This document shows positions 2,730 to 28,860 of a DNA stretch of 34,235 nt, piece after piece; position 1 is the stretch's first letter, and each line of letters starts with the position of its first letter. The stretch covers positions 1-34,235 of the IMG/VR virus record IMGVR_UViG_3300037200_000028; one strand, 5' to 3'. The notes beneath the pieces were generated by a model. The model made no database searches. It had not been told where the DNA came from and saw only the letters and a program-made list of their open reading frames with translations. Origin of the DNA: a virus. The translations under genes were made by a program, and so were the position numbers.

Positions 2730-4220
2730 TTAATTTTTTTTAAACCCTCTACCCTGCCCCATAGCAAAGTTTTGCGACTCCTCGATACAATAATCACAAG
2801 GGCCTGTTTCACTCTCACCAAATGTCCATTCACCATTTTCCACAAAACACTGACAGTTTGGATGGCAATCTGGATAATAGTTTAATTCATCATCAAACCT
2901 TTGTAATGTCATTCCTTTAAACTTAATCTGTTTAAACTGTTCCCCCTCCATTAACTTTTCTAATGCTAAATCTATATTCTTTGTGTTAATCTCTACGTGG
3001 TGGCCCGATATTCCTTCTATTCTTTTAAGTAAAGTATCCATCATCTGTTTTGGATCTGATGAAATAGAAACAACTGAACCATAACTATCTATAACCCCGT
3101 TTGGAATAGACCACTCACATCCTTTCTTATCCATAAATGAATTCATTCTGTTTATAAACGGTTTTAGGGAAGCATCATAGGTTAAATTACCGAAGTTTTT
3201 CTTAATAAATTCACTATTGATTGTAATCTCAGCTCCGTATTTGGCCTTCCATAGAGGTCTAATCGTTCCATTACCACGGGCACCCTCATAAATGATCTCA
3301 CTAAAGTTCTCTATCATATTCATCATACAATAGGTGGCTGGATTTGGGTTGCGGCAGCAAGGATCCATGAAATAGAACTTACCTTGCTTGTCTACTCGAA
3401 GCTCCGCAGAGAAACACCCAGTATATTTATACTTTTGAAAGACGATCCTCATCTTATCAAACACCTCCAATATTTCTTTAGGCATATCTTTGAAAGGTAA
3501 AACTTTACAGACATAACCAAGATCCTTTATTTCAAAACCATACATAATAGTTTCAGGGAATTCTCCATTCACCATCCAAGTATCGAACCCATACTCCAGT
3601 TCACCTTCAATGGGGTCTTGGACTATATAACTACAATCTGTAATTGGTCCTAAATCATATCTTAACTTATCTATTAATGGTCTGGTTGTATTCCAATCCT
3701 TATGAAAGAAGGTTTCATTATCTCCACGGGATTCACCATCAAACTTAACAAACTTATTTGTAACAATTTGTAAATGTGTAGCCAGGTTTTCTATTCCTTC
3801 TATCAGAATACTTGGTGGTGTGTTAAGTCCTAAACTTTTTAATAGTTGTAGAAACTCCCATCGTTTAACTTCTATGTCTTCTCCTCTACCGGAACCCCAA
3901 ACGGACTTTCCCATTGATCTTAATCTCTCCTGTAGGTCACCATCCAATATATCTGGGAATACAAACAGGTCTACCTCATCAACCACATCCCAAAAGTTAT
4001 AACACTTAACGATGTCTGGATATCCATCACCAATCGACATGTCTTTTGAAGTAGCAAAGAAATTCTTCCAGGGCGTAAAGTAATATACCTTACCAAAATC
4101 CTCTGCAAGTTTATGTGCAATACTTAAAAATAATCCGTAATCATAGCAAAGCGCCACTTTATTTTGGTATTTTTTAGGAGGAGTCTTATTATCCTGTAAG
4201 TTTTCGAATACTAATTTCAT
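2730..4220 (-). CDS. ATP-grasp enzyme with cysteine-rich C-terminal tail, in the virion gene cluster
   Basis: A 496-aa protein. Residues about 110-315 have the ATP-grasp pattern: an early helix after GSGRGED (110-115), a lysine strand NKFVKFDGESRGDN (155-168), an acceptor strand VQDPIEGELEYGFDTW (200-215), and the metal-binding strands ELRVDKQGKFYFMDPCCRNPNP (from 273, with Glu273, Asp286 and Asn291). This is the same order as in PurD-like carbon-nitrogen ligases, which join a carboxylate to an amine using ATP. Residues 452-478 carry CHPNCQC and a CDYC pair, possibly a metal knuckle; HPNC also recalls the C-terminal motif of phage Mu gpF-type head proteins. Its start overlaps the tail terminator stop (ATGA). 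Substrate unknown. A peptide- or protein-modifying amidoligase acting on virion parts is the likeliest inference, and host metabolite synthesis is the alternative. Confidence 0.75.
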   Translation of the reverse strand: MKLVFENLQDNKTPPKKYQNKVALCYDYGLFLSIAHKLAEDFGKVYYFTPWKNFFATSKDMSIGDGYPDIVKCYNFWDVVDEVDLFVFPDILDGDLQERLRSMGKSVWGSGRGEDIEVKRWEFLQLLKSLGLNTPPSILIEGIENLATHLQIVTNKFVKFDGESRGDNETFFHKDWNTTRPLIDKLRYDLGPITDCSYIVQDPIEGELEYGFDTWMVNGEFPETIMYGFEIKDLGYVCKVLPFKDMPKEILEVFDKMRIVFQKYKYTGCFSAELRVDKQGKFYFMDPCCRNPNPATYCMMNMIENFSEIIYEGARGNGTIRPLWKAKYGAEITINSEFIKKNFGNLTYDASLKPFINRMNSFMDKKGCEWSIPNGVIDSYGSVVSISSDPKQMMDTLLKRIEGISGHHVEINTKNIDLALEKLMEGEQFKQIKFKGMTLQRFDDELNYYPDCHPNCQCFVENGEWTFGESETGPCDYCIEESQNFAMGQGRGFKKN

Positions 4221-5630: not shown

Positions 5631-7703
5631 TTAGTCCTCCTTGTTCCACCAGTCGTTGCTGCGGCCCACCTGGTTAGTAAAACCATTGTATATTTTGGGC
5701 ATTCCCTGTGGTTTGAATGTGTGTATGCCTGGTTTCTCAACATTAGTTTTCTTTTTATGTGTGTGTATTGCATATCTACAATTATGAACTAATATACCAT
5801 TAGCAAAGTATTCAGGCTGATCCTCCACGCTTATATCGTAAACTATCTGGTACTCCAAACTTTTGTTTTCTATCTCTTCTACCTGATTTAGCTTTACAAT
5901 TATTATGGCAGAATCTTGATCTTCCTGAGCATCTTGTTTTATATTCTTTACCACACTCTTCACAAACTTTTGAGATATATTCTCTATCTTTCCAACTTTC
6001 GATTCCGTGTGTGGAGTGCCATTTAATTCCTTCTTCTGTGGAGTGCCACTGTTTAGCTGATTCAACACCAGCTTCCCAAAATATTCTAAACTGCTCTGGA
6101 TCTTTCTCAATCCTTTTCTTACTATGTTGTGATAAATGTTTAGATTTTTCAATACATTCAAGATTTTCTGGTCTATTATTCCAAGGATTCTCATCTTTAT
6201 GATGTATATCATATCCCTTTGGGATCTGTCCATTATAGAATTCCCATACTTTTCTATGCATTGCCCATCTATGTTGTGTGAAGTATCTCCTTCCGGGATA
6301 TAATTTATAGACTCTTCTATTGAATGTTTGTTTAGGGTTAAAGTCATCCCCGATTGTAATTGTGAAATCTGTATCCATTTTTCATTACTTTTAATTTTAT
6401 GTTCTTCTGTTGAACTAATATATATATTAAAAGTATCTCCCTTCATCCGGTATTTTTTAACTCTTTTCAATCCGTTATTATGAGTTTTATAAACTCTTTT
6501 ATACCCTTTCGTTGTTAAAACCAGATCACCAACTTTAATTTCATCTATTCTAACCTTTCCATTAATCGTATCTATTAATGTCTCTCCGATAAAACAAGCA
6601 TCCATAGCATCATCATTTAGTTTAACTGGTTCATCCAGTATGTGGTTCCCATTTGTCTTCCAACTGTATTGCCTATATTCTTTCCAAGCATTGACGGCCT
6701 TCTCATCCATATATATTTGGGAGGATTTAACCGTGTCAATCCCAACCTTAACATTCTTATCAGATCCTCGGGCGTTCAATCCACTACGTCTTAACTCTTC
6801 TATGATTTCTGGTCGGGCCGAGTCACAATAAATAGTTTTATCATCACAACTTTCTCTTATCAAAGTAATTAGTTCGGATATAATCAGGTTGGATTTATAG
6901 AATTCTTCCTTAATGTATATACCGCCGGTTTCATTATAGGAAATCTTCATTAGGACGGATGGATGGTTAAAGCCGAAGTCTAACCCATAGCAGTGATCGA
7001 TCATCGTTCCTGGGTCACCTGTGTAACTTTTAAAGTGTGAATAGATCCTGGTGGTTCCCGTCGGGGCAATTCCCAGTGCATAAATCCTATAATAGTTCTC
7101 ATCCACATTTATCATGTTAGCAATGTAGTCTATCTGATCCTGTCCCAGGAATGTATTATCAAGGTAGGTGGATCTAATCAATATGGCCTTAGTATCTGTG
7201 TTAGCCAAGTCATAAATCCAGTGGTCAGATTCAGATGGGTTAAAGTCAATGAATACTTTCCCAGAAGTTCTCATCACAAGCTGCATATATTCCTCAAAGC
7301 TTATCTCATTAGCCTCATTACAAAATAGATGCGTGCGTTTCTTTCCACGAAGTTTTTGTTCATCTATCGTTGCAAAGAATTCAATGGTGGAACCATTCGG
7401 GAAGTCATAACGGTGCGCCGTCATATTGTGTAAGTTCTCGTGGTACAGGTTTAAGTCTTTCATTATATCCACAAAGTCCCTGTAAATGGATGTTCTTAAG
7501 GATGGGAAGTACTTTCTTACAACCGATATGGATGTGTTTGGAGTGGTTAGGGCAACATATATTAATAGTTGGAGTATAGAATATGATTTGGAGGACCTGG
7601 ATCCTCCTTGGTTAATTATAAATCTTATATTAGGATCTTGGAACGCTTCAAGGTTCTTTGTAAATATGGGGGTATGTTCAATCTGTAGTTCACCTTGGGC
7701 CAT
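5631..7703 (-). CDS. terL: Terminase large subunit (ATPase-nuclease), interrupted by an intein
   Basis: A 690-aa precursor. The host protein is 418 residues once residues 370-641 are removed, the usual size for TerL. It packages DNA through the portal and cuts the concatemer. Visible motifs: Walker A-like GGSRSSKS (33-40), acidic LFCNEAN with catalytic Glu130, an IRSTYLDN coupling segment (176-183), and RuvC-type nuclease acidic residues Asp242 (GLDFGFNHP), Asp294 (YCDSARPE) and Asp365/Asp368 (NDDAMDA). The third nuclease motif is split: DDAMDA is followed by the intein, and RYAIHTH resumes after it at Cys642. Unspliced protein would lack an intact nuclease site. The ATG at 7703 follows the 61-aa gene after a short gap. 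Confidence 0.95.
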   Translation of the reverse strand: MAQGELQIEHTPIFTKNLEAFQDPNIRFIINQGGSRSSKSYSILQLLIYVALTTPNTSISVVRKYFPSLRTSIYRDFVDIMKDLNLYHENLHNMTAHRYDFPNGSTIEFFATIDEQKLRGKKRTHLFCNEANEISFEEYMQLVMRTSGKVFIDFNPSESDHWIYDLANTDTKAILIRSTYLDNTFLGQDQIDYIANMINVDENYYRIYALGIAPTGTTRIYSHFKSYTGDPGTMIDHCYGLDFGFNHPSVLMKISYNETGGIYIKEEFYKSNLIISELITLIRESCDDKTIYCDSARPEIIEELRRSGLNARGSDKNVKVGIDTVKSSQIYMDEKAVNAWKEYRQYSWKTNGNHILDEPVKLNDDAMDACFIGETLIDTINGKVRIDEIKVGDLVLTTKGYKRVYKTHNNGLKRVKKYRMKGDTFNIYISSTEEHKIKSNEKWIQISQLQSGMTLTLNKHSIEESINYIPEGDTSHNIDGQCIEKYGNSIMDRSQRDMIYIIKMRILGIIDQKILNVLKNLNIYHNIVRKGLRKIQSSLEYFGKLVLNQLNSGTPQKKELNGTPHTESKVGKIENISQKFVKSVVKNIKQDAQEDQDSAIIIVKLNQVEEIENKSLEYQIVYDISVEDQPEYFANGILVHNCRYAIHTHKKKTNVEKPGIHTFKPQGMPKIYNGFTNQVGRSNDWWNKED
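5781..6596 (-). mobile_element. Intein (272 aa) in the terminase nuclease motif III
   Basis: The intein begins at Cys370 of the precursor (CFIGETLIDT, block A; codon 6596-6594) and has VGDLVLTTKG after it. Block B is TEEHKIKSNEKW with Thr432 and His435. The C-terminal half has VYDISVEDQPEYFANG (block F) and ILVHN followed by Cys642 (block G; terminal His-Asn and +1 Cys, Asn codon 5783-5781). All residues needed for class 1 splicing are present. The roughly 190-residue linker between the halves (about 440-630) shows no LAGLIDADG or HNH motif in this frame. A complete HNH gene occupies it in another frame. Confidence 0.95.
5812..6378 (-). CDS. HNH homing endonuclease nested out of frame inside the intein
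   Basis: A 188-aa ORF wholly inside the terL/intein coding sequence on the same strand but in the -1 frame. It shows a strong HNH_3-like core: HRWAMHRKVWEFYNG (36-50), GYDIHHKDENPWNNRPENLE (55-74; His59/His60, Asn68, Asn72), then SKHLSQHSKK. A second zinc-ribbon-like module has C139-x2-C142 and C157-x3-C161 followed by basic residues. The family makes a site-specific DNA break and is the usual partner of homing elements. A stop codon lies two codons upstream (TGA AAA ATG), so translation should start at this ATG in an A-rich leader. It ends inside the region for intein block F. Conserved motifs make a chance ORF very unlikely. Confidence 0.92.
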   Translation of the reverse strand: MDTDFTITIGDDFNPKQTFNRRVYKLYPGRRYFTQHRWAMHRKVWEFYNGQIPKGYDIHHKDENPWNNRPENLECIEKSKHLSQHSKKRIEKDPEQFRIFWEAGVESAKQWHSTEEGIKWHSTHGIESWKDREYISKVCEECGKEYKTRCSGRSRFCHNNCKAKSGRRDRKQKFGVPDSLRYKRGGSA

Positions 7704-10201: not shown

Positions 10202-10529
10202 GAAAGAATGGAACCGGAACTATAATAAGACTGAAAAAGGAAAGGCTGCAATTAAAAGGGCCCAACTGAAATATAGGGCCACCAAAAAAGGGAAGAAGGC
10301 TTTACTTAAAGCTACCAAGAAATATAATAGCAGTCCTGAGGGAAAGGCCGTCATTAGGATGCGCGAACAGAGAGATAAGGAGAAACTGGCCGCAAGAAGG
10401 AAAGTTTGGTATAATGAGAATAAAGAAAGGATTAAACTGGTTAGGGCAGCGTATTACCAGAAGAACCGAGAGAAGTTATTAGCCTACCAAAACTCAAGGT
10501 ATATTTCTAAAAAGAAGAAGAAGAGATGA
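10194..10529 (+). CDS. Lysine-rich repeat protein (111 aa)
   Basis: A 111-aa basic protein with internal repeats: YNKTEKGKAAIKRAQLKY, then YRATKKGKKALLKATKKY, then YNSSPEGKAVIRMREQR. This is a roughly 18-20-residue unit with a conserved K/E-G-K-A core. The C-terminus ends in a run of lysines. It overlaps both neighbours (8 bases upstream, ATGA downstream), so it is one translational unit with them. Different in repeat type from the 101-aa neighbour but similar in charge. Nucleic-acid binding is a guess from charge only. Confidence 0.6.
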   Translation: MDKKEWNRNYNKTEKGKAAIKRAQLKYRATKKGKKALLKATKKYNSSPEGKAVIRMREQRDKEKLAARRKVWYNENKERIKLVRAAYYQKNREKLLAYQNSRYISKKKKKR

Positions 10530-10714
10530 TGAAGAGACAGATTGAACACATAACCAGCTGGGATGATTTGGAAACCTTTAAGACCTGTAAGCAGTGTAAG
10601 AAGCTAAAGGATGGAACTAATTACTATGACGATTACGTTAAGCTTTGTAAAGCTTGCGTAAGTGAGAACGTCCAAGCTAATAAGAAAAAAAGAGATAATG
10701 GCACACGATTGTAA
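10526..10714 (+). CDS. Small zinc-ribbon protein (62 aa)
   Basis: A 62-aa protein with two CxxC pairs (CKQCKK near residue 21 and CKAC near 42) separated by about 17 residues, typical of a small zinc ribbon. The start ATG overlaps the previous stop (ATGA). It continues with a basic tail (ANKKKRDN). Probably DNA- or RNA-binding. Confidence 0.6.
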   Translation: MMKRQIEHITSWDDLETFKTCKQCKKLKDGTNYYDDYVKLCKACVSENVQANKKKRDNGTRL

Positions 10715-12330: not shown

Positions 12331-12596
12331 TAGCAATACTTAAATCACTTTTAATAAGCAAAGTAGTAGTAATGTTTTCCCCACTACAATTGGTGCTTTC
12401 TATTTTTGAGGATAGTAAATATAAATTGGTTAAAATAATTTGTATGTTAATAACAGAATTGATTACTTGTTTTAGTTGCGCCTCGTTTTGGATATCATTA
12501 CTAATGTGGCATGACCTTTATATAAGCTGTGTGTGTTACTTATTAGCTTTTATTTATAATCGCTTCCTACAAAAATATGAAAATAAATTAGAATGA
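12318..12596 (+). CDS. Small membrane protein (92 aa)
   Basis: A 92-aa protein with about three hydrophobic segments: IIIAILKSLLISKVVVMF (about 3-20), LVKIICMLITELITCFSC (about 37-54), and a third centred on ISCVCYLLAFIYNRFL (about 69-84). Short charged tail. Its stop overlaps the ATG of the glycosyltransferase (ATGA), so the two are probably made together. It could be a membrane partner for the glycosyltransferase, a superinfection-exclusion protein or a holin; the sequence does not decide. Confidence 0.6.
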   Translation: MDIIIAILKSLLISKVVVMFSPLQLVLSIFEDSKYKLVKIICMLITELITCFSCASFWISLLMWHDLYISCVCYLLAFIYNRFLQKYENKLE

Positions 12597-13444
12597 AAAC
12601 ATTAAGAAAAGAACTTTATAGTCCAAAGTTAAAGGACTGGAAGCAATCATTAGATATTGCCGAAACGGTATTTGTTAATACACTTAATGATGAACCATTA
12701 ACCTTCAACCTACTTTGGTTAGGACCCAGAGACTTTGGACGCAAACAATTAGCCATCATTAAAAGTATATTAGCTAACCATAAGGATCCTGTGATACATC
12801 TTTGGACCAACCTGGATCTATTCTATAACGAATACTTCCAACAGGTCGCGCCCTATATTCATTTAAGACAGGTCGAACCATTGGATGGTGATGACTATAA
12901 ACATTATATGAGTTCGGATTATTATAGACTACGAATGTTAAAAGAACACGGTGGGTTTTGGATCGACTTTGACGTGTTGGTGCTTAGGGATATGAGTCCG
13001 TTAAATATGATAAACTTTGCCTATCAGCTTGGCACAAGTGGATTTAACGTAAATGAACCTGAGATGATGATGAATAATGCTGTTATGAGGCTTGATAAGG
13101 ATGGTGAAATAGTAAATGAATTGTTAGATTTATTAGGAAAAACAAGAGGAATCCCCTCTACTTATTGCTGGGGATCTGACCTATTTAAAAGACTAACTGG
13201 AGATAGGATAACGTGCTTGCCTGGAATTTGGTTTGAAAGTGCTGGGTGGGGCCACGAGGGATTATCCAAACATGAAAATATATTTACCGATAATGGAACT
13301 ATTGAAATGTTACCAGGAGCCTTTACGGCCCATTGGCACAATAAATGGGACCATGATATACATCCAAATAGTAAATTCCAATACATAGAACAAAATCATA
13401 ATTTAAGAATACAAAACAAAGTCAGAATTAAATTACCAATATAA
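12593..13444 (+). CDS. GT32-like glycosyltransferase with DXD motif
   Basis: A 283-aa protein. The segment YYRLRMLKEHGGFWIDFDVL (about 110-129) is the hallmark of the sugar-binding DXD family (Gly_transf_sug), with metal-binding Asp125 and Asp127. AHWHNKW (246-252) gives the usual C-terminal catalytic/metal histidines, and the WLGP-type opening strand (42-45) fits a GT-A fold. These enzymes transfer a sugar from a nucleotide-sugar. Targets in a phage could be host surface glycan, a virion protein or modified DNA bases. The last eight codons (VRIKLPI and the stop) lie in the 82-bp direct repeat, so the C-terminus may be a product of recombination. Confidence 0.85.
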   Translation: MKTLRKELYSPKLKDWKQSLDIAETVFVNTLNDEPLTFNLLWLGPRDFGRKQLAIIKSILANHKDPVIHLWTNLDLFYNEYFQQVAPYIHLRQVEPLDGDDYKHYMSSDYYRLRMLKEHGGFWIDFDVLVLRDMSPLNMINFAYQLGTSGFNVNEPEMMMNNAVMRLDKDGEIVNELLDLLGKTRGIPSTYCWGSDLFKRLTGDRITCLPGIWFESAGWGHEGLSKHENIFTDNGTIEMLPGAFTAHWHNKWDHDIHPNSKFQYIEQNHNLRIQNKVRIKLPI

Positions 13445-13880: not shown

Positions 13881-14160
13881 TTTCCTTTTCACTGTCCCCT
13901 TGCGTTTCAAACCAATCTGGTATATTTGTATTCTACCTGAAGAACCTATTTTTAAAATATATCAATCATCCAATGATGGTGCTGCCTATGTCATCTCATT
14001 TAAAAATGGTGGAAAATATTATGGATGGTTTAGTGATAGAGGATTTTTAGTTGAAACATCTCCCAAACAATTTAACCGAATCAGTATAGATAATAAATAT
14101 TTTATACCCTTAGATGAATATAGAATTGAAAAAATAAACCAAATACTAAATGAAAAATAA
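13873..14160 (+). CDS. Hypothetical protein (95 aa)
   Basis: A 95-aa protein starting MDDFLFTVPLRFKPIWYICI, with a beta-rich middle (DGAAYVISFKNGGKYYGWFS) and a short C-terminal helix IEKINQILNEK like the end of the previous ORF. It overlaps both neighbours by 8-11 bases. It lies inside the repeat-bounded cassette with the methyltransferase. No family recognised. Confidence 0.5.
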   Translation: MDDFLFTVPLRFKPIWYICILPEEPIFKIYQSSNDGAAYVISFKNGGKYYGWFSDRGFLVETSPKQFNRISIDNKYFIPLDEYRIEKINQILNEK

Positions 14161-15448
14161 AACTAAATTATTAAACGGAGATAATCTCCAACTATTAAAA
14201 ACATTACCAGATAATTCTATTGATTCAATAGTCACTGATGGTCCGTATGGATTGAAGTTTATGGGTAAAAAATGGGATTATAATGTTCCATCGGTTGAGT
14301 TTTGGAAGGAATGCTTAAGGGTTATAAAACCTGGTGGTTATGTATTATCATTTGGAGGAACACGCACATACCACCGACAAGTCTGTAATCTGGAAGATGG
14401 TGGGTTTGAAATTAGAGATTGTATTAGCTGGTTATATGGTTCGGGATTTCCCAAATCACATAACATAGGTAAGGCAGTTGATAAGATTAATGGGGTTGAA
14501 AGGGAAGTTATTAATAATGTAAAACAACCAAGAATGAATAATGATTATGGTAAAGGAGTATATAATGAAAGGGAATTGAAAGAAATAGATATTACCAAAG
14601 GATCCTCACCACAAGAAGGATATGGCACAGCCCTAAAGCCAGCCCAGGAATTAATTTGTATGGCAAGAAAACCTATATCCGAAAAGACGGTAGCTGAAAA
14701 TGTATTGAAGTGGGGGACTGGTGGAATAAATATAGATGGATGTCGTGTGGGTAATGAAGAGATGATACACAATGGATGTGGTAAATCTAATATAGGTAGT
14801 ATTGGTGGGTCCTTTGAAAAAGGAACAAAAGATAATAAAATATTTAAAAGTGAAGGCAGATTCCCAGCCAACATCATATTTGACGAAGAAGCTGCGAAGG
14901 AGTTGGATAGACAGAGTGGGGTAACAAAGGGAAAACCATCATATAAAACTAAAACCGGTGGATATCAAAATAGTTATGTTGGTGGTGAATTAAAAAATGG
15001 CGTTGATTATAAAGGATATCCTGAATCAGGCGGCGCCAGTAGGTTTTTTTATATCGCTAAGGTTTCAAAAAAGGAGAGGAATATGGGGTTGGATGGATTT
15101 GAGGAGGTTGAAATTACAGATGAAACATTTAATTCGTTTGATGAAAATGGAAATAGATTAAGAAAACATTCCGATGGATCAACCAGTATCATTAAACCTA
15201 TTATGCGTGCCAACCACCATCCCTGTGTCAAGCCCATCAACCTATTAACCTATCTTGTTAGACTGGTAACACCACCTAATGGTATAGTATTGGATCCTTT
15301 TATGGGTTCTGGTTCAACAGGTATAGCAGCACTATTAGAAGGCTTTAGATTTTGCGGGATGGAACTTGACAAATCATACTTTGATATTGCTACCGCAAGA
15401 ATTGAAAGTTTTGAGGAGTATCGAAAATTGATTAAAAAGAAGGATTAA
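14150..15448 (+). CDS. DNA methyltransferase, beta-class N4/N6 type
   Basis: A 432-aa enzyme. Motif IV is DGPY (30-33, a DPPY variant) within IVTDGPYGLKFMGKKWDY. The SAM-binding motif I is near the C-terminus: DPFMGSGSTG (382-391) followed by GFRFCGMELD. This order, catalytic motif before SAM motif, defines the beta class, which methylates exocyclic amino groups of adenine (N6) or cytosine (N4). The target-recognition region (about 90-330) is long. No cognate restriction enzyme gene is seen, so it is an orphan enzyme, most likely protecting phage DNA. The repeat-bounded context marks it as a gained accessory gene. Confidence 0.9.
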   Translation: MKNKTKLLNGDNLQLLKTLPDNSIDSIVTDGPYGLKFMGKKWDYNVPSVEFWKECLRVIKPGGYVLSFGGTRTYHRQVCNLEDGGFEIRDCISWLYGSGFPKSHNIGKAVDKINGVEREVINNVKQPRMNNDYGKGVYNERELKEIDITKGSSPQEGYGTALKPAQELICMARKPISEKTVAENVLKWGTGGINIDGCRVGNEEMIHNGCGKSNIGSIGGSFEKGTKDNKIFKSEGRFPANIIFDEEAAKELDRQSGVTKGKPSYKTKTGGYQNSYVGGELKNGVDYKGYPESGGASRFFYIAKVSKKERNMGLDGFEEVEITDETFNSFDENGNRLRKHSDGSTSIIKPIMRANHHPCVKPINLLTYLVRLVTPPNGIVLDPFMGSGSTGIAALLEGFRFCGMELDKSYFDIATARIESFEEYRKLIKKKD

Positions 15449-17679: not shown

Positions 17680-18276
17680 TTAAAATATCAAGCCTCCACC
17701 CTCTGATTGCCATCCAGCCTTACCCCTTTTGTTATTTGTTTTAACCCCACCAATCCTATTGTTGTAAGTTTCCTTACGCGCAATACGTGGGTCTATTCCT
17801 GTATATGATGTATATTCTGGATAAGAATTCATATTATTCATTAAAAACAATTTTGTAGTTTCGTTGTAATAATTAGCTACACTTAAAATATGTTGTAGTT
17901 TAGCATTAAACTCATCATCGGTTGAGGGATGTGATATCTTTGCGTCAGTTGTTTTCTCTAAAACCCCCTTATTAGTGTCTCTGGTTCGTAGATCAAACAT
18001 TAGGTGATAGTGTGTGAAGTGAGCCAGTGCTGGTTGTACATAAGTGTTTATTAAGGTTTGATAGTTGGGCTCTGAATTGATAGCACCCGTGGCAACATCA
18101 TTCATTAACTTCCAATATAAGGTTTGACCTAATATAGACTGTATATTAGTATCCTGCGCAATAGTTATGTTTGCGTTTATCAATTGTGGGTCCACATTAT
18201 TATCCACGGTAGTCCATGTGAATAGATATTGTGGTGTGATAAGTTGGGCGAAATTTACTAAGTTAGTTAGTGCCAT
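17680..18276 (-). CDS. Head-tail connector/adaptor protein (198 aa)
   Basis: A 198-aa helical protein. The N-terminus has the pattern of a short helix, ITPQYLFTWTTVDNNVDPQL (about 13-32), then AQDTNIQSILGQTLYWKL. Proteins with I-T-x-x-x-x-x-x-x-V-D-x-x-x-I followed by Q-D-x-x-I-x-x-x-L-G act as head-completion adaptors between portal and tail in phages of this host group. The C-terminus is Gly/Arg-rich. It overlaps the portal gene by 14 bases, consistent with assembly at the portal. Confidence 0.7.
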   Translation of the reverse strand: MALTNLVNFAQLITPQYLFTWTTVDNNVDPQLINANITIAQDTNIQSILGQTLYWKLMNDVATGAINSEPNYQTLINTYVQPALAHFTHYHLMFDLRTRDTNKGVLEKTTDAKISHPSTDDEFNAKLQHILSVANYYNETTKLFLMNNMNSYPEYTSYTGIDPRIARKETYNNRIGGVKTNNKRGKAGWQSEGGGLIF

Positions 18277-19681
18277 GTTTTTGTTTATATTTTATTGCCT
18301 CAACAGCATCCTTTGCATCTTGTTTAAAAGCCTGAAACTTCTCACGTGACTGTTTAGCCACAGCTGCTGGTTTAGGTTTAACTGGTGCTGCCCCAGGTGC
18401 TGGTTCTATTCCATTACCAACCATATTCTTAGCCTCGTCCTCTGAGTAACCCGATGCAACTAACACCGCAGTTTTTTGTGATGGGGTAATTTGGGCTGAC
18501 AGTATTGCCAGTAGATCGGGTACGGTTATATTAACCTGGACATCTAATTCATATTTAGCCAGCTCAATATTATCCGTCACCCCATTTACCCGTGCCAGCC
18601 TATTTAAAACCTTCTCTATGAGGTTCTGCTGAGGGGTGACATACAAAGCTTGGAATGTTTTTAAGGATTCAACCAGCTCGTTCTTATTCGATGCCAGTCC
18701 GCCCGGTGCCACAACCCCAAATAAAGTTGGATTTGTAACCTGATGGGCTACCATGATCTTATTTACTATCTTTTCATCCAAGTTTAAAAAGTTTTCACCG
18801 TTCTGGTTGGTGTTCATAGTAGTAATTACTGGAACTTCATCCTTAGAATTTGAAAATGTATGTAAGGTATTAGAAGGGTTATCAGATCCCTGATGTTGGT
18901 TCTGTAAAGATGAGATTAGGAAATCCTTTTCCTCCTCACCAGGAATATATCCTACCCAGTTGAATACGGTTTGTAAGCTGAATCCGTTCTCGATATTATT
19001 GTAATGATAATTCGCGATAGAGTAGTCACACATTATACTTTTAACGTTGGATACGTAGTTAGGTTCACCATAATAATATTTACCTGACTGATGTTTCTTA
19101 ACATAAAGTATTTGTGATGGGTTTTTAATGTCAATTTTTGAAAATCCTGGGTAGGCAACTGAGTTTTTCTCCAAATATTTCTTCCAAGACTTATTTACAA
19201 TGTAACCTTGTATAGATTCCTCATTATCATCTGGTGCTATGATACGAATTGTCTGCGGATTCATATAATTAATCTGGGAAATCTTCTTTCTATCCTTAGT
19301 CCAGATAATGTTCAATGCGAAGGCTCCATATATTTCTAAATCCAAAGATATACGAGCAACAATTTCCTCCAAGTCATATTCATTCCATGGGTTCGAGATA
19401 AACATCAGGGCGTCATTAGATAATCCTTCTTTAACAATTCCATTTCCGCCAATTAATTGGGCCTTTGTCGATACGATCGCCCTATGAGTGCTGGACCTAC
19501 TTAATAATCCTAATAGAAAGTCTGGATATTTGTTATCATCCCCGAACTTTACAATCCCTTTTGCAGGATCTACTTTTTCGGAATAGTCTGGAACATCCCC
19601 GCTAAATTCCATCATCTTTCTATCTATGGAATTGGTTCCTCTTGAGGTGTTAAATGCTTGTGGTTTCTTTTTATTTTCCAT
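18263..19681 (-). CDS. Portal protein
   Basis: A 472-aa protein. Early residues give VKFGDDNKYPDFLLGLLSRS (about 45-64), followed by helices with STHRAIVSTKAQLIGGNGI, the usual entry of phage portal proteins. The core has a mixed alpha/beta clip region and a helical crown part. The C-terminal 50 residues are Ala/Pro/Lys-rich. The portal is the twelve-fold ring at one capsid vertex through which TerL pumps DNA. Here it lies after the capsid and tail tube genes in transcription order, far from terL in window coordinates. Confidence 0.85.
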   Translation of the reverse strand: MENKKKPQAFNTSRGTNSIDRKMMEFSGDVPDYSEKVDPAKGIVKFGDDNKYPDFLLGLLSRSSTHRAIVSTKAQLIGGNGIVKEGLSNDALMFISNPWNEYDLEEIVARISLDLEIYGAFALNIIWTKDRKKISQINYMNPQTIRIIAPDDNEESIQGYIVNKSWKKYLEKNSVAYPGFSKIDIKNPSQILYVKKHQSGKYYYGEPNYVSNVKSIMCDYSIANYHYNNIENGFSLQTVFNWVGYIPGEEEKDFLISSLQNQHQGSDNPSNTLHTFSNSKDEVPVITTMNTNQNGENFLNLDEKIVNKIMVAHQVTNPTLFGVVAPGGLASNKNELVESLKTFQALYVTPQQNLIEKVLNRLARVNGVTDNIELAKYELDVQVNITVPDLLAILSAQITPSQKTAVLVASGYSEDEAKNMVGNGIEPAPGAAPVKPKPAAVAKQSREKFQAFKQDAKDAVEAIKYKQKHGTN

Positions 19682-20040
19682 TATCGCGTTAAATTTTGGT
19701 ATGCTGAGAACGTAAATGTTCCAGCTGTATATGTTGGTGTTGCTGTTACTGCTGAAAATGTTCCAGGTATGGATAATATTCCATTTCCTGCAACCGAGAT
19801 AAAACCACCACCAGCAGTTGCAGTTTCATATATCGTGTAATTATATTGAGAGGCTGGATAAATATTCGTCACAGCAAATTCATTATAATATGGTGATGGA
19901 CTAATATCTGGAAGGTAAAACGAATAGGTTATACCAGTTGTTTTATCCTCAAGCAGCCAGGTGTAATAGCTTTGCGTCAGCGAACTTGTTAATTGTGTAA
20001 ATAAATTAGTTGATCCCGTCAGTCCCAGTATTAACATCAT
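19681..20040 (-). CDS. Small beta-rich virion-associated protein (119 aa)
   Basis: A 119-aa protein rich in Thr, Ser and Tyr with beta strands (YYTWLLEDKTTGITYSFYLP and TYTAGTFTFSAYQNL). ATG at 20040 follows the previous stop directly, and its stop overlaps the portal start. Such proteins are often found near the portal or tail fibres in Bacteroidetes phages. An Ig-like or decoration role is possible. No family recognised. Confidence 0.55.
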   Translation of the reverse strand: MMLILGLTGSTNLFTQLTSSLTQSYYTWLLEDKTTGITYSFYLPDISPSPYYNEFAVTNIYPASQYNYTIYETATAGGGFISVAGNGILSIPGTFSAVTATPTYTAGTFTFSAYQNLTR

Positions 20041-20041
20041 A

Positions 20042-20275
20042 TTATATTAGGTTTTGAGAATTCTCCGTGATGTTTGAAATTTTAGGAAAAGTCATGTATG
20101 AAGTTTTAATTTCCGGATTGGATTTAATTTCTTCCTCAAAGTATTCTGAGTAGGCGTGTGTAAAATAATAATTGTAAAGTGATTCCTCCAGGAACCTCAA
20201 AACAACGAAACCTCGCGTTAAGGGACATTTCACCGATAGATCGAGGTATTCTTGTTTAATTTTTAAAGTTTTCAT
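20042..20275 (-). CDS. Small structural/hypothetical protein (77 aa)
   Basis: I start at the ATG at 20275 (MKTLKIKQEYLDLSVKCPLT). A GTG at 20296 would add seven residues but sits closer to the hairpin region. The pattern of a short strand, KxEYLxxSV, a mid-length helix and F-E resembles small Bacteroidetes phage proteins coded beside portal and connector genes. Exact role unknown. Confidence 0.55.
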   Translation of the reverse strand: MKTLKIKQEYLDLSVKCPLTRGFVVLRFLEESLYNYYFTHAYSEYFEEEIKSNPEIKTSYMTFPKISNITENSQNLI

Positions 20276-20322
20276 CTGATATATTGTATATATCACCCGT
20301 GGAATTATATAGTTATTATTTT

Positions 20323-20387: not shown

Positions 20388-21356
20388 TTAATTTGGTAAT
20401 TGTAATGTATTACCTGCTCCTATACTAATTGCTGCTACTAATGTAGAGTAAAGACCTCCAGAGATTACGGTAGAGGCGCCAGTATCTGCGAAGGCGAAAT
20501 TTGTTAAGAATGAACCTGATAGGATGTTATTAGCCCCAAAAGTAAATGCCCCACCTGATGTAAAGAATATTCTACTGGCGTGTGCTCCACCCATTAGAAC
20601 CATTTCAAAATTAGCACCAGTTGTTACAGCACCAACCACATTAAATACATAATCACCATCCCCATATAGGGTAATAGTTTGGTCTGCTGTTGCGTCAAGT
20701 GCGTTACTAAAAGAATAAACCCCAGGTATAAATCTACCAGCAGTTAAACCAGAAGCTGTAATATCAGTTGATACAGATATTTGACTTGCTGTTAATGCTA
20801 CTAATTGGTTATACAATGTGTTGGCTGCGGATACCGCTGCTGTGCTTACTCCTGAATTAGTTCCAGATCCAAATACTATATTGGTAGGGTTTGTTAAAGT
20901 ACCCTCACCAGTATTTCCACTTAGAATAAATTCATTGGCACCAGCTGTAATAGTTCCCCCAGTTAGTACGGTAAATCCTGATGCGACACCAAGACTATAA
21001 AGTGATGCTGATGGTGTTACTACATTTGAATAAGGATTAACCACAAGGTTAGAATCCCAGTTATTCCCGAAAGAATTAAATGTATATGATTGTCCCACCA
21101 ATAATGATTGATAAGCGTTTAAATTACCACTCAGATAATCACCCTCATAAGGAAATACATGTAGTGTATTTAAACCTGAGTTTTTTACAGAGATAGAATA
21201 TCCCTGAGTTGCCTCAGGAAGTTTTACACTATCCCCAGAGTTTGTTACGATATTAATGGTGTTTATATCTGATACCAATCTTGTGGCATTGGTCTGTCCT
21301 CCTGTTGGGAAGGCGGACATACCAGTTGACATATTATGAATTGTTAAGTTATACAT
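20388..21356 (-). CDS. Divergent DUF3494 (ice-binding-like) protein with N-terminal beta domain (322 aa)
   Basis: Residues about 1-112 form a beta-rich domain (TINIVTNSGDSVKLPEAT and SYTFNSFGNNWDSNLVV) of the type found in phage adhesins and decoration proteins. Residues about 120-315 follow the DUF3494 plan: SLGVASGFTVLTGGTITAG, FIPGVYSFSNAL (209-220), GDYVFNVVGAVTTG (234-247), GGAHASRIFFTSGGAFTFGA (256-275) and the closing STLVAAISIGAG. The family forms a beta-solenoid, and several members bind ice. This copy is more divergent than its neighbour, with GAHASRIFF in place of GAQAANVFW. Its place downstream of the tail tube and first DUF3494 genes suggests a virion role. Confidence 0.8.
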   Translation of the reverse strand: MYNLTIHNMSTGMSAFPTGGQTNATRLVSDINTINIVTNSGDSVKLPEATQGYSISVKNSGLNTLHVFPYEGDYLSGNLNAYQSLLVGQSYTFNSFGNNWDSNLVVNPYSNVVTPSASLYSLGVASGFTVLTGGTITAGANEFILSGNTGEGTLTNPTNIVFGSGTNSGVSTAAVSAANTLYNQLVALTASQISVSTDITASGLTAGRFIPGVYSFSNALDATADQTITLYGDGDYVFNVVGAVTTGANFEMVLMGGAHASRIFFTSGGAFTFGANNILSGSFLTNFAFADTGASTVISGGLYSTLVAAISIGAGNTLQLPN

Positions 21357-21379
21357 ATTTTTATAAGTTATTTTTTAGT

Positions 21380-22336
21380 TTAAGCCTCTGATGTAATAGA
21401 TAAGCCAGTTGGTGATGCTGGAGGTGCTGGTGCCACGTTAGGGCCAGCTAATGGTAAATTAACCAAAACACTTTCAGCGAATACAATTACGTCATTCGTA
21501 TCTAATGTTATAGCTCCAATATTAGCCATCAACCTTCCATTTACACAAGCTGAGGTATTAACGGTAATAGATGTCTGTGCTAATACATTACCAGCGAATT
21601 GTGTTCCAACTCCAAGTGTTGCTGAGCTACCTACTAACCAAAAAACGTTAGCGGCTTGTGCTCCACCTACCAAGACAACTGAACTTGTTCCAGCTGCGGT
21701 TATAAGTGTTGAACCTATTTGGAAGATCCAAACAGCATTTGGGTTAGCCTGTGCGTCCAACATAAGTGTTCCTGTTATAGCTAATGAGGTTGCTACCTTA
21801 TAAACTCCAGGGGTTAATCTTTGTCCGCCAATATCGGCTGACATTGTTATACCATTTGGAAGTGCCATACCAGCAACTCGTGCTGCTAAAAAGTCTGTTT
21901 GTGCGTACATAGCCACATAGTCAGCAATGTGAAAGTCACCCTGTATTTGAACTGGTGCCTCGAATCCTGTTACGGAAGTTCCTGGATATAAACCGATATT
22001 TCCACTAATGGAACTGGTTGACCCTGGTACGTGTGTAATAGTTGTTGCTGCCAAAAGCCCGAAAGCTGCTGCTGAGGCAAGGTTAAGTGGTGCTGGTGAT
22101 GGTAAAAATGGCACCGGTGTTGATGTGATTGTTAAAGAGTCTACGCTCTCTACTCCATTTTGTATAGAGGTTACATCATATGTATATGTGTTTCCTGGGA
22201 ATACACTATAGTCAGTATAAGTTGATTGTGTAACTCCTGCGTTATTAAGCGGGAAGTTGGACCCATTTCTGTAGACGTTATATCCTGATACGGGTGAGGG
22301 CATTGAAGCCCAAGTAATGGTAATGTGGTTAGCCAT
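21380..22336 (-). CDS. Fibronectin III plus DUF3494 (ice-binding-like) protein (318 aa)
   Basis: Residues 1-75 look like a fibronectin type III domain (ITITWASMPSPVSGYNVYRN, then YTYDVTSIQNGVES). Residues about 88-290 are a clear DUF3494 domain: AAAFGLLAATTI (89-100), SGNIGLYPGTSVTGF (111-125), GQRLTPGVYK (171-180), LDAQANPNAVWIFQIGSTL (193-211), GAQAANVFW (225-233), SSATLGVGTQFAGNVLA (237-253) and CVNGRLMANIGAITLDTN (264-281). These are signature segments of the ice-binding/antifreeze-type family known from cold-adapted bacteria, algae and fungi. No signal peptide. The Fn3 domain suits attachment to a virion or surface. The gene follows the tail tube in the late operon. Confidence 0.9.
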   Translation of the reverse strand: MANHITITWASMPSPVSGYNVYRNGSNFPLNNAGVTQSTYTDYSVFPGNTYTYDVTSIQNGVESVDSLTITSTPVPFLPSPAPLNLASAAAFGLLAATTITHVPGSTSSISGNIGLYPGTSVTGFEAPVQIQGDFHIADYVAMYAQTDFLAARVAGMALPNGITMSADIGGQRLTPGVYKVATSLAITGTLMLDAQANPNAVWIFQIGSTLITAAGTSSVVLVGGAQAANVFWLVGSSATLGVGTQFAGNVLAQTSITVNTSACVNGRLMANIGAITLDTNDVIVFAESVLVNLPLAGPNVAPAPPASPTGLSITSEA

Positions 22337-22475: not shown

Positions 22476-22991
22476 TTATTGTAGAACTGATGCTGCAGCT
22501 GCCGCAGTTACTTCATAATAAGGAACATAATCCTCAGAAGTAATTGTTATGTTGTGTCCATTCAAATCAGAAAGTCCGACTCCAGAACCACCAGCAATTG
22601 CTGTTACATTACATTGTGCGTTTATTCCCATCATAAAATATTTACCTTGTCTGGTTAAAAATATAACGCGGAATATACCTTGTCCTAATATCTGCAAAGT
22701 GTTTGAGGTTGCTGCTGACATAGCGTATAACATAAATGTTAAAGTCTGTGTATATCCTGTTGCGTTGTTTTGAACGTTAATAGAGGCTGGTGAAGTAAAT
22801 TCAGCAGCTGAGGGTTGCTGTTGCAATTGGTAAAATGAAACAGTCGCTCCAGTAAATGCTGTGATTAAAGATTGTGTTGAACCAACGGTAAATCCCATTG
22901 ATGTTCCGTTATAAGTTCCGACCCAAACCGTAGTTATACCACCGACAGCGGCACATCCAAGTAAAGTATCATTTGCTATTGTACATCCCAT
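22476..22991 (-). CDS. Major tail tube protein
   Basis: A 171-aa protein beginning MGCTIANDTLLGCAAVGGIT. The order is: Cys-containing start, GGI-x-x-x-W/Y, a variable beta part, a long amphipathic segment (SNTLQILGQGIFRVIFLTRQ) followed by GKYFMMGINAQCNVTA, a Gly/Leu-rich turn with SDLNGHNITITSEDYVPYYEV, and a final Ala-rich stretch. As I recall, Bacteroidetes siphovirus tail tube subunits share this L-G-C, GKY-x-x-x-G and D-L-N-G-x-x-I/L-T order. It would stack into the tail tube under the control of the tape measure and chaperones. It comes right after the capsid gene. Confidence 0.75.
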   Translation of the reverse strand: MGCTIANDTLLGCAAVGGITTVWVGTYNGTSMGFTVGSTQSLITAFTGATVSFYQLQQQPSAAEFTSPASINVQNNATGYTQTLTFMLYAMSAATSNTLQILGQGIFRVIFLTRQGKYFMMGINAQCNVTAIAGGSGVGLSDLNGHNITITSEDYVPYYEVTAAAAASVLQ

Positions 22992-23074: not shown

Positions 23075-24088
23075 TTATCTATCTTTTAATACTACAAACT
23101 GAGGATATACTGCAACAGCTCCTATTTTGAAAGCGTTACGATACCAAAGTGAGTTTGTGAGCTTTTCAAACCAAACTTGTGGTGATGCCCAATCCTTCTC
23201 AGAGTAACAACCCATTGCTAAGTTTTTAGCGTAAGTCAATACAATTTTACCGGTTGTTCCATTTAAACCTCTTGTTGCTTTAACAAGGATGTTTGTTCCA
23301 GGATACATAAAGTAACTATCAGCTGTGACGGTTGCTTTTTGTGTTTGTCCTATCTCAATATGGAAACCATTAAACTGTCTCCAAGCTACTAATAGAGTTT
23401 GGAAGTCAGCGTAGTTCATAAAGGCGGTTATGTCAGGTTGATTCAACACTTGTGAAACAGAACCAACAAGTAACCCGATTAGTTTATCAACACAAGCGAT
23501 AGCTGTTGAAGATACTAATGCTCCTGAATAAGAACCAGCGATAGTGAATACTGAAGCTGATGCTGAGGACAACATCAAGTTGTAAAGGAATCCGTTACAG
23601 AATGTCATATTAACATCTGTTGAGAAGGTTCCAGAACCAGAGCTGTTTCCAACCCAGATAATGTCGTCGATGAATGCTGCAATCTTTAGAAGTTTGTCAG
23701 CCAAATATGCCTCAGCGAACTGAGCAGGTCCAAGTTTCTCGTCATACGATCCACCCATTCCAGCCATACCAGTCCAGTACTGTTGTAAGTCAGCAAGACA
23801 GATATTTTCGATGAAAGCTAAGTCACACACAGCAAGAATAGTTCCAGCCAATGTAACTGAACCTGTTGCTGTAAGGATTGCTCCAGATGCAGCACAAGAG
23901 TTTAATTGTACCTGAGGGAGAGATGTAATTAAATTAATCTGTCTTTGGTATTGCACATCGGTATAAACCGTGATTGCATTTGGCTCATTTAAAGTTGTAG
24001 CCATCAGAACGGCTTCATGAAACACTTCGGTCCCAGAAACTTGGTCTGTGTATTTGGTTAAATTTTCTATAATCGTACCTACTGCCAT
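23075..24088 (-). CDS. Major capsid protein
   Basis: A 337-aa protein in the canonical place after protease and scaffold. It starts directly at MAVGTIIENLTKYTDQ with an N-terminal helix and strand (SGTEVFHEAVLMATTL), contains QYQRQINLITSLPQVQL, a helix run with FIENICLADLQQYW, and ends in beta strands (NILVKATRGLNG and AFKIGAVAVYPQFVVLKD). This agrees with an HK97-fold shell protein of the 300-400-aa class used by Bacteroidetes phages. The scaffold is a separate gene, so the delta domain is not fused. Strong intergenic stem-loops on both sides fit high expression. Confidence 0.8.
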   Translation of the reverse strand: MAVGTIIENLTKYTDQVSGTEVFHEAVLMATTLNEPNAITVYTDVQYQRQINLITSLPQVQLNSCAASGAILTATGSVTLAGTILAVCDLAFIENICLADLQQYWTGMAGMGGSYDEKLGPAQFAEAYLADKLLKIAAFIDDIIWVGNSSGSGTFSTDVNMTFCNGFLYNLMLSSASASVFTIAGSYSGALVSSTAIACVDKLIGLLVGSVSQVLNQPDITAFMNYADFQTLLVAWRQFNGFHIEIGQTQKATVTADSYFMYPGTNILVKATRGLNGTTGKIVLTYAKNLAMGCYSEKDWASPQVWFEKLTNSLWYRNAFKIGAVAVYPQFVVLKDR

Positions 24089-27496: not shown

Positions 27497-27739
27497 TCAT
27501 ATATTATTACTTTGTGTTCCAGTTACGGTTATATCAGTAAAAGTTCCATCTATATAAGACCACATCTTATTTATATCAGGAACACTAACATCATAGATGA
27601 TATGATCCAACCTATCATCATCCGCAATCGCGTGCCAAGTTCCATCCGGATTATAACAAGTTATTATTCCTGTTTCTGGATCCTGTATGATCTTGTCGGA
27701 TGTCCCAACAACTATATTATTTGTATCAATTACTATCAT
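27497..27739 (-). CDS. Small tail-associated protein (80 aa)
   Basis: An 80-aa protein starting MIVIDTNNIVVGTSDKIIQD, with beta strands and a Trp-containing end (INKMWSYIDGTFTDITVTGT). It overlaps the upstream propeller gene stop (ATGA) and ends four bases before the tape measure. Short proteins after tail fibre genes with the W-x-Y-I-D-G-x-F pattern act as fibre assembly or capping partners in some phages; that is only suggestive here. Confidence 0.45.
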   Translation of the reverse strand: MIVIDTNNIVVGTSDKIIQDPETGIITCYNPDGTWHAIADDDRLDHIIYDVSVPDINKMWSYIDGTFTDITVTGTQSNNI

Positions 27740-28860
27740 CTTATTGGTGGTATATATTGTGGGGCAAATACTATACTGGCGCCTGCCGCCGCTGATGTAT
27801 AAGATGTCCAGTTAATCCCATCCTTACTTCCCCATACTTTTGCTGAGTTACTATCAACGACCCAGAATATTTCACTATAAGGTTCCCATATAATAGAATA
27901 CCATTCATGAACAGCAGATGTCACTGCTGATCCAGTAATCCAAGTATATCCACCATCATCACTATATTGGGATGGGTGTGTTGTAGCATTGCCACTATAC
28001 CAGGCGATTACTGCCCTTCCTTTGCCTTGTGTTCCAAGATTTGGCGCCCACGCGATTCCTTTATATAAATTAATAGCACCTGATGCAGATGGGGCCATCC
28101 CGGTTGGTGTTCCTACCGTCCAGTTTATTCCATTAGATGAAGTTGCGGCATAGGCGGTGGTGGTGGTAGATCCTACGGTTATAAACATACCAGATGATGG
28201 TATGTAAAATATGCCATAAGGACCATTACCTGCGTTCCATCCATTGGTTGGTGTGGACGCGGTGGCCCAGGTTGATCCATTATTTGTGGAATATAAAAAG
28301 GCATTTGATTGTAGTGACATTGAAGATGGTTGTAATTGACATACTAATGTCCCATTTCCATATGCTACACCACCCCCGCTGGATAGTGAAGCGGATGTTG
28401 AATAAGTTGAAGTGATAAAATTTTTACCATCAGTTGAAGTTCCAATATAAGCCTGTGATGCCGTGCCTCCACTTATAAAGAATTTATTTAATTGTGGAAT
28501 CCAATTAACCCCTTGAATAAGAGGTGTAGTTGAAGCCGGTAATGAAATTGATCCAGTAGCCCAAGTCGGGGTAACACTATTTGGATTACTACAATATTGA
28601 ATAATAGAATTGGTTCCGGCATTATAATTAGCATAGGTTGTTACCCCTAATACTGGGGCGTGATCCATTCCGTAAATTAGTACTGATAGATTTGTATTAG
28701 ATGATGTAAATGTTAATGATGCTGGTAATGTTGGTCCGAATTGTGTAGCATATTGAATCCTTTGATTGGTTCCTGATGTTTTGGAAGCAAGAACAACCCC
28801 ACCTACTGGTCCCCAACCAACAAATCCCATCATAGCCCTTGCATTTTTATTTTGATTCAT
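27736..28860 (-). CDS. Asp-box (BNR-type) beta-propeller, probable receptor-binding protein
   Basis: A 374-aa protein with at least five degenerate Asp-boxes of the S-x-D/N-x-G-x-x-W/F type: STDGKNF, STNNGSTW, SSNGINW, SDDGGYTW and SKDGINW, spaced as in sialidase-like propellers. Between them run strands such as NWIPQLNKFFISGG and IAWAPNLGTQGKGRAV. Such domains bind glycans or act as glycosidases; I see no clear catalytic Asp/Tyr/Arg set, so binding is likelier. The ATG follows the fibre gene stop directly (TAAATG). A tail-tip adhesin that selects the host surface glycan is the best inference. Confidence 0.7.
   Translation of the reverse strand: MNQNKNARAMMGFVGWGPVGGVVLASKTSGTNQRIQYATQFGPTLPASLTFTSSNTNLSVLIYGMDHAPVLGVTTYANYNAGTNSIIQYCSNPNSVTPTWATGSISLPASTTPLIQGVNWIPQLNKFFISGGTASQAYIGTSTDGKNFITSTYSTSASLSSGGGVAYGNGTLVCQLQPSSMSLQSNAFLYSTNNGSTWATASTPTNGWNAGNGPYGIFYIPSSGMFITVGSTTTTAYAATSSNGINWTVGTPTGMAPSASGAINLYKGIAWAPNLGTQGKGRAVIAWYSGNATTHPSQYSDDGGYTWITGSAVTSAVHEWYSIIWEPYSEIFWVVDSNSAKVWGSKDGINWTSYTSAAAGASIVFAPQYIPPIR

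Follow-up and report, generated by a model that had tools for sequence, protein, structure and literature searches.

Why would a tailed phage encode two adjoining proteins of the ice-binding type among the genes for its own particle? The window analyzed here, which is the whole of the linear virus record IMGVR_UViG_3300037200_000028 (34,235 bases), carries two such open reading frames side by side on its minus strand, IBP1 and IBP2 (318 and 322 aa). The initial annotation of this DNA had described them as DUF3494 proteins located between tail tube and portal genes and probably serving as virion decorations. Our analysis leads us to propose that they are accessory particle proteins, made together with the head genes, whose DUF3494 solenoid is probably displayed at the particle surface and acts there as an adhesive module.

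The DUF3494 fold is certain in both proteins. Against the Pfam family Ice_binding (PF11999), whose curated cut-off is 28.7 bits, IBP1 scores 186.9 bits (E=4.9e-55, residues 95-283) and IBP2 scores 51.3 bits (E=1.5e-13, residues 129-305), and both are therefore far above chance. Sequence comparison relates IBP1 to 25 distinct DUF3494 sequences of solved structure (best 6eio, E=1e-37), and IBP2 to the same family of structures (best 4nuh, E=8.9e-7). AlphaFold models, built with alignments of viral and bacterial homologues, show in each case a discontinuous beta-solenoid with a side helix. The IBP1 model (mean pLDDT 88.7) has AnpIBP as its best PDB match (7bwy; TM 0.93 by target length, rmsd 1.4). 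In the IBP2 model (mean pLDDT 70.5), confidence is mostly high in the solenoid and mostly below 60 in the first 112 residues; its matches include FfIBP (7ehk, the best, E=3.1e-11) and 7bwx (TM 0.84). Foldseek returned 31 PDB chains per model at E<=0.001, and all the matches listed are DUF3494 proteins. Loss of the solenoid or of its flat face, named beforehand as what would speak against the initial annotation, was looked for, and both features are kept in IBP1 and in IBP2; with both proteins above the PF11999 cut-off and both models solenoids, the two adjacent DUF3494 genes announced at 20388-22336 are confirmed. The NCBIfam equivalog IBP_CFB (NF045625, cut-off 400 bits) was not reached by either protein (98 and 27.3 bits for IBP1 and IBP2), neither matched the ice-binding-like adhesive family pAdhesive_15 (PF20597) at E<=0.1, and PHROGs holds no family for IBP1 or IBP2. 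Our two proteins share with the known ice-binding proteins of PF11999 (AnpIBP, PDB 7BWX; 6EIO, which we take to be EfcIBP; FfIBP, 4NU2) the domain family, the solenoid with its side helix, and a flat B-face of small residues, but differ in being without a signal peptide (by a heuristic), in carrying Fn3 or virion domains, and in their position in a phage head block; they are known here from sequence and models.

IBP1 and IBP2 are encoded inside the head/tail gene block of a tailed phage (Table 1). Read from the right on the minus strand, the order is a 671-aa protein, taken for a tail protein and without family match, then a collagen-repeat tail fibre, a 374-aa protein, a tape-measure-like protein (phrog_1538), an XkdF-type protease, a scaffold-like protein, the probable major capsid protein (MCP), the 171-aa protein, IBP1, IBP2, the 84-aa and 119-aa proteins, the portal, and a DUF6712 protein. 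Of the two flanking genes named initially, the portal holds by its family match and the tail tube does not, the gene in question being that of the 171-aa protein, which belongs to a family of unknown function (phrog_19091). The late-gene position, in contrast, was called correctly.

Table 1. Coordinates of IBP1, IBP2, their parts, and the genes around them in the window
Feature	Position	Strand	Basis
IBP1, 318 aa: permuted Fn3 (inferred), DUF3494 solenoid, C-terminal strand	21380..22336	-	
IBP1 residues 1-79: Fn3 from strand B, N-terminal strand A missing	22100..22336	-	
IBP1 residues 84-286: DUF3494 solenoid with flat B-face	21479..22087	-	
IBP1 residues 309-318: conserved C-terminal strand after Pro-rich linker, proposed Fn3 strand A	21383..21412	-	
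IBP2, 322 aa: N-terminal beta domain, DUF3494 solenoid	20388..21356	-	
IBP2 residues 1-112: N-terminal domain	21021..21356	-	similar to small ctIqW946 protein
IBP2 residues 117-322: DUF3494 solenoid	20391..21008	-	
171-aa protein, conserved, flanking the insertion on the left	22476..22991	-	phrog_19091; homologue gp03 of Nonlabens phage P12024S
Probable major capsid protein (MCP)	23075..24088	-	position; weak P12024S gp02 match; sister phage 58% identical
84-aa protein, right neighbour of the insertion	20042..20296	-	homologous ORF in sister phage, by eye
119-aa protein, kept in sister phage	19681..20040	-	
Portal protein	18263..19681	-	phrog_33693, E=5.6e-28

Two relatives show this backbone without the pair. 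The sister contig IMGVR_UViG_3300000553_000208, whose portal is 65-68% and whose MCP is 58% identical to those of the window, has the same gene order minus IBP1 and IBP2: a 172-aa gene precedes, in order, a terminator-like hairpin (by eye), the homologue of the 84-aa gene (also by eye), that of the 119-aa gene, and the portal. The cultured Nonlabens phage P12024S (host Persicivirga sp. IMCC12024, from seawater) has homologues in the same order, namely the protease gp01, the MCP gp02 (weakly), the 171-aa protein gp03, the portal gp06, and the connector gp08. PF11999 searches of the sister contig record and of P12024S gave no match. Because the same site is empty in both, we regard the pair as an accessory insertion in the head block. 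We infer the host from these two relatives and take the window virus to be a Bacteroidota-type phage; scans of viral contigs with the portal and with an MCP alignment returned, as further backbone relative, the one sister contig only. The G+C contents of IBP1 (0.428) and IBP2 (0.381) resemble those of their neighbours (0.32-0.42), and A-rich leaders precede both genes as they precede others, so that a very recent arrival is not indicated. In this region, a promoter scan gave fewer sites than in shuffles, terminator-like sites numbered 7 versus 2.9 expected, none being considered reliable, and an Rfam search returned nothing.

Other genes of the window deserve mention in their own right. The gene of the 374-aa protein (27736-28860, minus strand; beta-propeller-like by eye, without family match) is absent from the sister contig, in which its flanking genes lie 13 bases apart, and is thus a second accessory gene of the late block. 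The large terminase (5631-7703, minus strand) contains an intein, with the C-terminal splice region TIGR01443 over its cut-off at residues 621-642 and PF14890 just under its own; a 188-aa ORF in another frame of the same strand within the intein stretch (5812-6378) is HNH endonuclease-like by eye. A 496-aa protein of the structural region (2730-4220, minus strand) is ATP-grasp-like by eye and matched neither Pfam nor NCBIfam. The plus strand carries, in the stretch separating the two late blocks, a glycosyltransferase with a DXD-type family match (12593-13444) and a DNA methyltransferase (14150-15448) that has a long insert.

How is IBP1 built? The Fn3 domain attributed to one of the proteins is supported in IBP1 by structure, whereas its sequence score against Pfam fn3 stays below the cut-off of 25 bits (14.5 in the whole protein and 18.4 for the N terminus alone). 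Joining the C-terminal tail before the N terminus brought this score to 25.5 bits (profile positions 2-76), versus 19.3 with a shuffled tail; the same operation raised a homologue, L041 (viral loci are numbered with the prefix L), from 17.4 to 23.3 bits, and neither version of L025 or L031 matched fn3, so that the effect is seen in 2/4 members. All 12 listed members of the IBP1 family (11 distinct viral proteins and IBP1) start at [IV]x[IVL]xW within ~40 residues, a motif that we assign from its pattern to Fn3 strand B, and all 12 share a conserved C-terminal tail with the pattern PPAPPAAPTGLxIxxE, which reads like the missing strand A. In the IBP1 model, a strand at 310-317 (block pLDDT 78-88) follows the low-confidence Pro-rich linker. 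The base of IBP1 would therefore be a circularly permuted Fn3 domain, whose last strand is possibly swapped between chains; a strand-swapped FN3-type structure (4m6a, by its title) is among the matches of the model. Matches of the Fn3 region to RGI_lyase and purple-phosphatase families are below cut-off and were taken as the same beta-sandwich signal. Separately, L041 encodes at 10335-10679 (plus strand) a small lone Fn3 protein with a strand-B start and a strand-A-like tail and without a solenoid.

IBP2 follows another design. The different beta domain proposed for it does exist as a separate N-terminal piece, albeit one whose model is poor; residues 9-93 resemble a small protein of siphovirus ctIqW946 (32% over 85 aa, E=6e-4), the gene of which adjoins a tail fibre gene. 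The solenoid of IBP2 is without a loop that other members have, a scan of viral contigs with full IBP2 found no relatives, and in the tree its branch (5.06) diverges too far to be positioned. The identity of IBP1 is 57-59% with domains of other phages and about 27-28% with IBP2, which excludes a recent duplication. Between the old duplication and the separate acquisition considered initially, these identities favour the latter, which appears to be the simpler reading, although IBP2 itself is unplaceable.

The module is not confined to this phage, and the finding is more general than the initial annotation supposed. A search of viral contigs with IBP1 alone gave 9 loci, and a profile of 10 viral domains gave 47 viral contigs, confirmed from 148 pattern matches and including those 9. 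Alignment A4 has 47 rows (IBP1, IBP2, and 45 viral proteins, without L028 and L052), and PF11999 matches 47/47 of them; A5 used 60 and A6 used 48 of the available rows. L037, L041, and L065 (span >230 aa) were left out of the slice list. The 47 contigs sort into 12 of the IBP1 design, 4 sheath fusions, L034, L043, 5 long proteins, and 5 exported forms, with the other 19 falling in no class. DUF3494 is fused to a tail sheath in L056 (phrog_279, E=1.7e-25) and in L054 (phrog_16991, E=4.6e-5; sub-threshold PF17482), while L045 and L059 count as sheath fusions only through their similarity to L054 (hhalign E=1.3e-5, probability 81%) and show no similarity to the sheath of L056. Such fusions would put a solenoid on every sheath subunit. 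Furthermore, the domain is joined to a baseplate-J-like region in L034 (E=7.9e-4, just under the Pfam cut-off; phrog_1608, E=8.3e-5) and occurs with a minor-tail match in L043 (phrog_9922, E=6.6e-7). It lies near the C terminus of similar proteins of 1476-1635 aa in L061, L066, L067, L068, and L070; the L061 protein has a weak match to the head-decoration family phrog_20658, which 3 members of A4 match. The neighbouring genes agree with particle parts: terminase and portal or head-tail genes lie downstream of the DUF3494 gene in L001 and L003, a tail gene lies upstream in L004, head-protease/major-head matches lie just before it in L008, and, by eye, an MCP-like gene lies directly before it in L028 and a collagen-like fibre follows it in L032. 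The genes in L001, L003, L028, and L032 are of the IBP1 type. The tested neighbours in L005 and L009 have no structural name.

In the tree, computed without L028 (identical to L027) and with L052, the nearest rows to IBP1 are proteins of other phages (L024, L037, L041, L027, and L032). Viral and bacterial labels need 11 changes, compared with 38.8 in shuffles, and at least 4 are forced by well-supported branches, which points to several exchanges between bacteria and phages followed by spread among phages, the bacterial rows being the top 80 among at least 557 confirmed hits. Three candidate carriers were set aside, since their matches run outside DUF3494 or were not found: the match of IBP1 to phage record LR756508 passes through the Fn3 part only, that of L037 to phage Tunturi_3 gp7 passes through an Ig-like insert only, and cyanophage S-SKS1 (HQ633071) has no PF11999 match at E<=0.001. 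A tblastn search of 50,697 phage records with IBP1, IBP2, and the L045 and L038 domains gave no DUF3494 match, and the notion that cultured phages carry the domain was dropped on this basis. Relatives of IBP1 are also encoded by 38 plasmid records (15 from Streptomyces, 9 from Curtobacterium), several annotated as ice-binding family proteins.

Are these proteins parts of the particle or secreted? Signal peptides were called by a hydrophobic-segment heuristic, not SignalP. It finds none at the N terminus of IBP1 or IBP2, as the initial annotation had stated, and is positive for 6/40 testable viral homologues (7 not testable) versus 65/78 testable bacterial ones (2 not testable; best 80 of at least 557; Fisher p=4e-13). 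One of the six viral positives, L049, is a probable false positive, with its segment at residue 53. Clearly secreted or lipoprotein forms are encoded by 5/47 viral contigs, and not every viral DUF3494 protein is structural. For most of the group, this contrast and the tail fusions make particle parts a better reading than secreted protection factors. That phages elsewhere have the domain fused to their sheath and to further tail proteins also lends support to the virion decoration proposed for the window pair, whose location in the particle we consider likely.

The flat face was then compared between the groups. Outward positions of IBP1 were mapped from the ice-binding residues given for AnpIBP (PMC7277481) through the alignment of the IBP1 and structure sequences. 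The 24 positions read TTTV GATD TSTN SSTG STIA TSAT in IBP1 and GTTG AASG FAAT GATG GATG NADD in IBP2, that is, T, S, A, or G at 20/24 in each at the level of sequence; a hand count from PMC7277481 gives 17/24 small residues for AnpIBP. On average, the face is T/S/A/G at a fraction of 0.89 in viral (46 rows) and 0.86 in bacterial proteins (80 rows), compared with 0.47 at other positions in both; this tally omits L028, identical to L027, and keeps L052, which has the same domain as L050. With strand b6 and all columns in retrieval patterns left out, the mean frequency of the top residue in 47 viral rows is 0.76 for the outward face, 0.62 for inward positions (p=0.045), and 0.60 for other strands (p=0.012). 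The 13-row IBP1 clade gives 0.86, 0.78 (p=0.083), and 0.71 (p=0.024), and the 80 bacterial rows give 0.78, 0.76 (p=0.34), and 0.68 (p=0.078). That outward residues change less than inward ones suggests, at the sequence level, a binding job whose ligand it does not specify; as bacterial homologues keep the face too, its retention could also reflect a constraint of the fold.

Taken together, DUF3494 looks like a sticky surface module that recurs among phages. For the window phage, we infer presence on the particle, outward orientation, and target, and consider an adhesive role likely. In the mechanism that we propose, the Fn3 domain of IBP1 would form the base; the chain would start at strand B, run out into the solenoid, and return, and its last strand may fill the empty place of strand A in its own chain or in a neighbour's. 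The solenoid would point outward, and its flat Thr/Ser/Ala/Gly face would bind an ordered surface by multivalent contact, the candidates being ice, given a face of the ice-binding type, or a regular polymer on the host. Against this explanation stand the free-standing state of IBP1 and IBP2, which are not themselves fused to a structural protein; the same face in the bacterial homologues examined, with a weaker conservation contrast; the partial success of the permutation test; and the face of IBP2, with 6 Thr/Ser compared with 15 in IBP1.

The explanation can take two specific forms. The main rival to ice as a target is a host-surface polymer: virion-borne solenoids would attach to a regular polymer of the cell surface, ice binding having been lost or being incidental, a form to which we give not quite even chances. 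It fits the partner domains, namely Fn3 and an Ig-like insert found also in Tunturi_3 gp7 (annotated as a tail fibre protein), which are of a kind typical for fibres of phages, and the presence of the module in phages of different G+C; the ice-type face is, however, not degraded and bears few charged residues. Many glycan-binding faces are polar or aromatic, which we also count against this form.

In the second form, which is possible from the sequences and on balance somewhat unlikely, the virion-borne proteins would bind ice, so that virions adhere to crystals or veins of ice, or gain protection from recrystallizing ice, and thereby stay near hosts in freezing soils or waters. The closest solved relatives are known ice binders, and the face has been retained, its conservation in phages exceeding that of other strands. 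Moreover, S153 and T156 of AnpIBP, whose change to Tyr abolished prism-ring binding (PMC7277481), align with identical residues in IBP1 (S237 and T240). On the other side, the bacterial homologues (best 80 of at least 557) come from many organisms without an evident tie to ice, and PF11999 has been reported from ice-free environments too (PMC12337378). Doubtful, in our judgment, is the broadest version, by which unrelated tailed phages would repeatedly have acquired a working ice-binding domain, displayed on head-associated spikes and, in many copies, along contractile tail sheaths, with virions attaching to ice and one group carrying it on a permuted Fn3 domain whose last strand may be swapped between subunits.

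Repetitive beta domains frequently serve phages as spacers, and the solenoid might be an inert spacer or stabilizer on the particle with no binding role; the greater conservation of viral face residues than of inward and other-strand residues, retrieval columns left out, makes this improbable. Least probable of all, and set against by the missing signal peptides of IBP1, IBP2, and most viral homologues (by heuristic), by the head-block position, and by the direct sheath and baseplate-type fusions, is that these are auxiliary genes protecting the host cell from freezing during infection, despite the few secreted or lipoprotein-type forms and an earlier article that interpreted three PF11999 genes of Arctic viruses as possibly cryoprotective for the host (PMC11515562).

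Those Arctic virome genes belong to the same Pfam family in viral contigs and were read as host auxiliary genes, whereas here DUF3494 sits in or beside structural proteins, and the tail-protein fusions argue against that reading for PF11999 here. The same article associates homologues of its ice-binding-like protein with viruses, mostly cyanophage S-SKS1 (PMC11515562), and an antifreeze protein domain has been described in a Pseudoalteromonas phage genome (PMC6527751). Ice adhesins of the SfIBP_1 type, cited in PMC7277481, likewise carry a DUF3494 solenoid on beta-sandwich modules as an adhesin, but are cellular, unlike the phage-encoded IBP1 and IBP2. Viral DUF3494 folds are also found in Hyperionvirus, a giant virus unlike the window phage; in BFVD at E<=0.001, the three matches (E=4.8e-16 to 3.7e-10) are all giant-virus DUF3494 proteins, with no phage protein. 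Accessory Fn3/Ig-type domains of phage heads or fibres are likewise modular and near head and fibre genes; here, it would be a solenoid of the ice-binding type that is displayed, and the Fn3 domain appears to be circularly permuted. A limited check of full-text literature found no report of DUF3494 as a phage particle domain.

Two small soluble proteins, together with the sheath-fusion phages, allow the target, ice or host surface, to be tested directly. Should virions bear an adhesive face of the ice type, phages would possess a physical means of clinging to ice or to other ordered surfaces, which would bear on virus persistence and host encounter in freezing soils, snow, and waters, and PF11999 genes of viral metagenomes would have to be read as particle parts, not as host cryoprotection.
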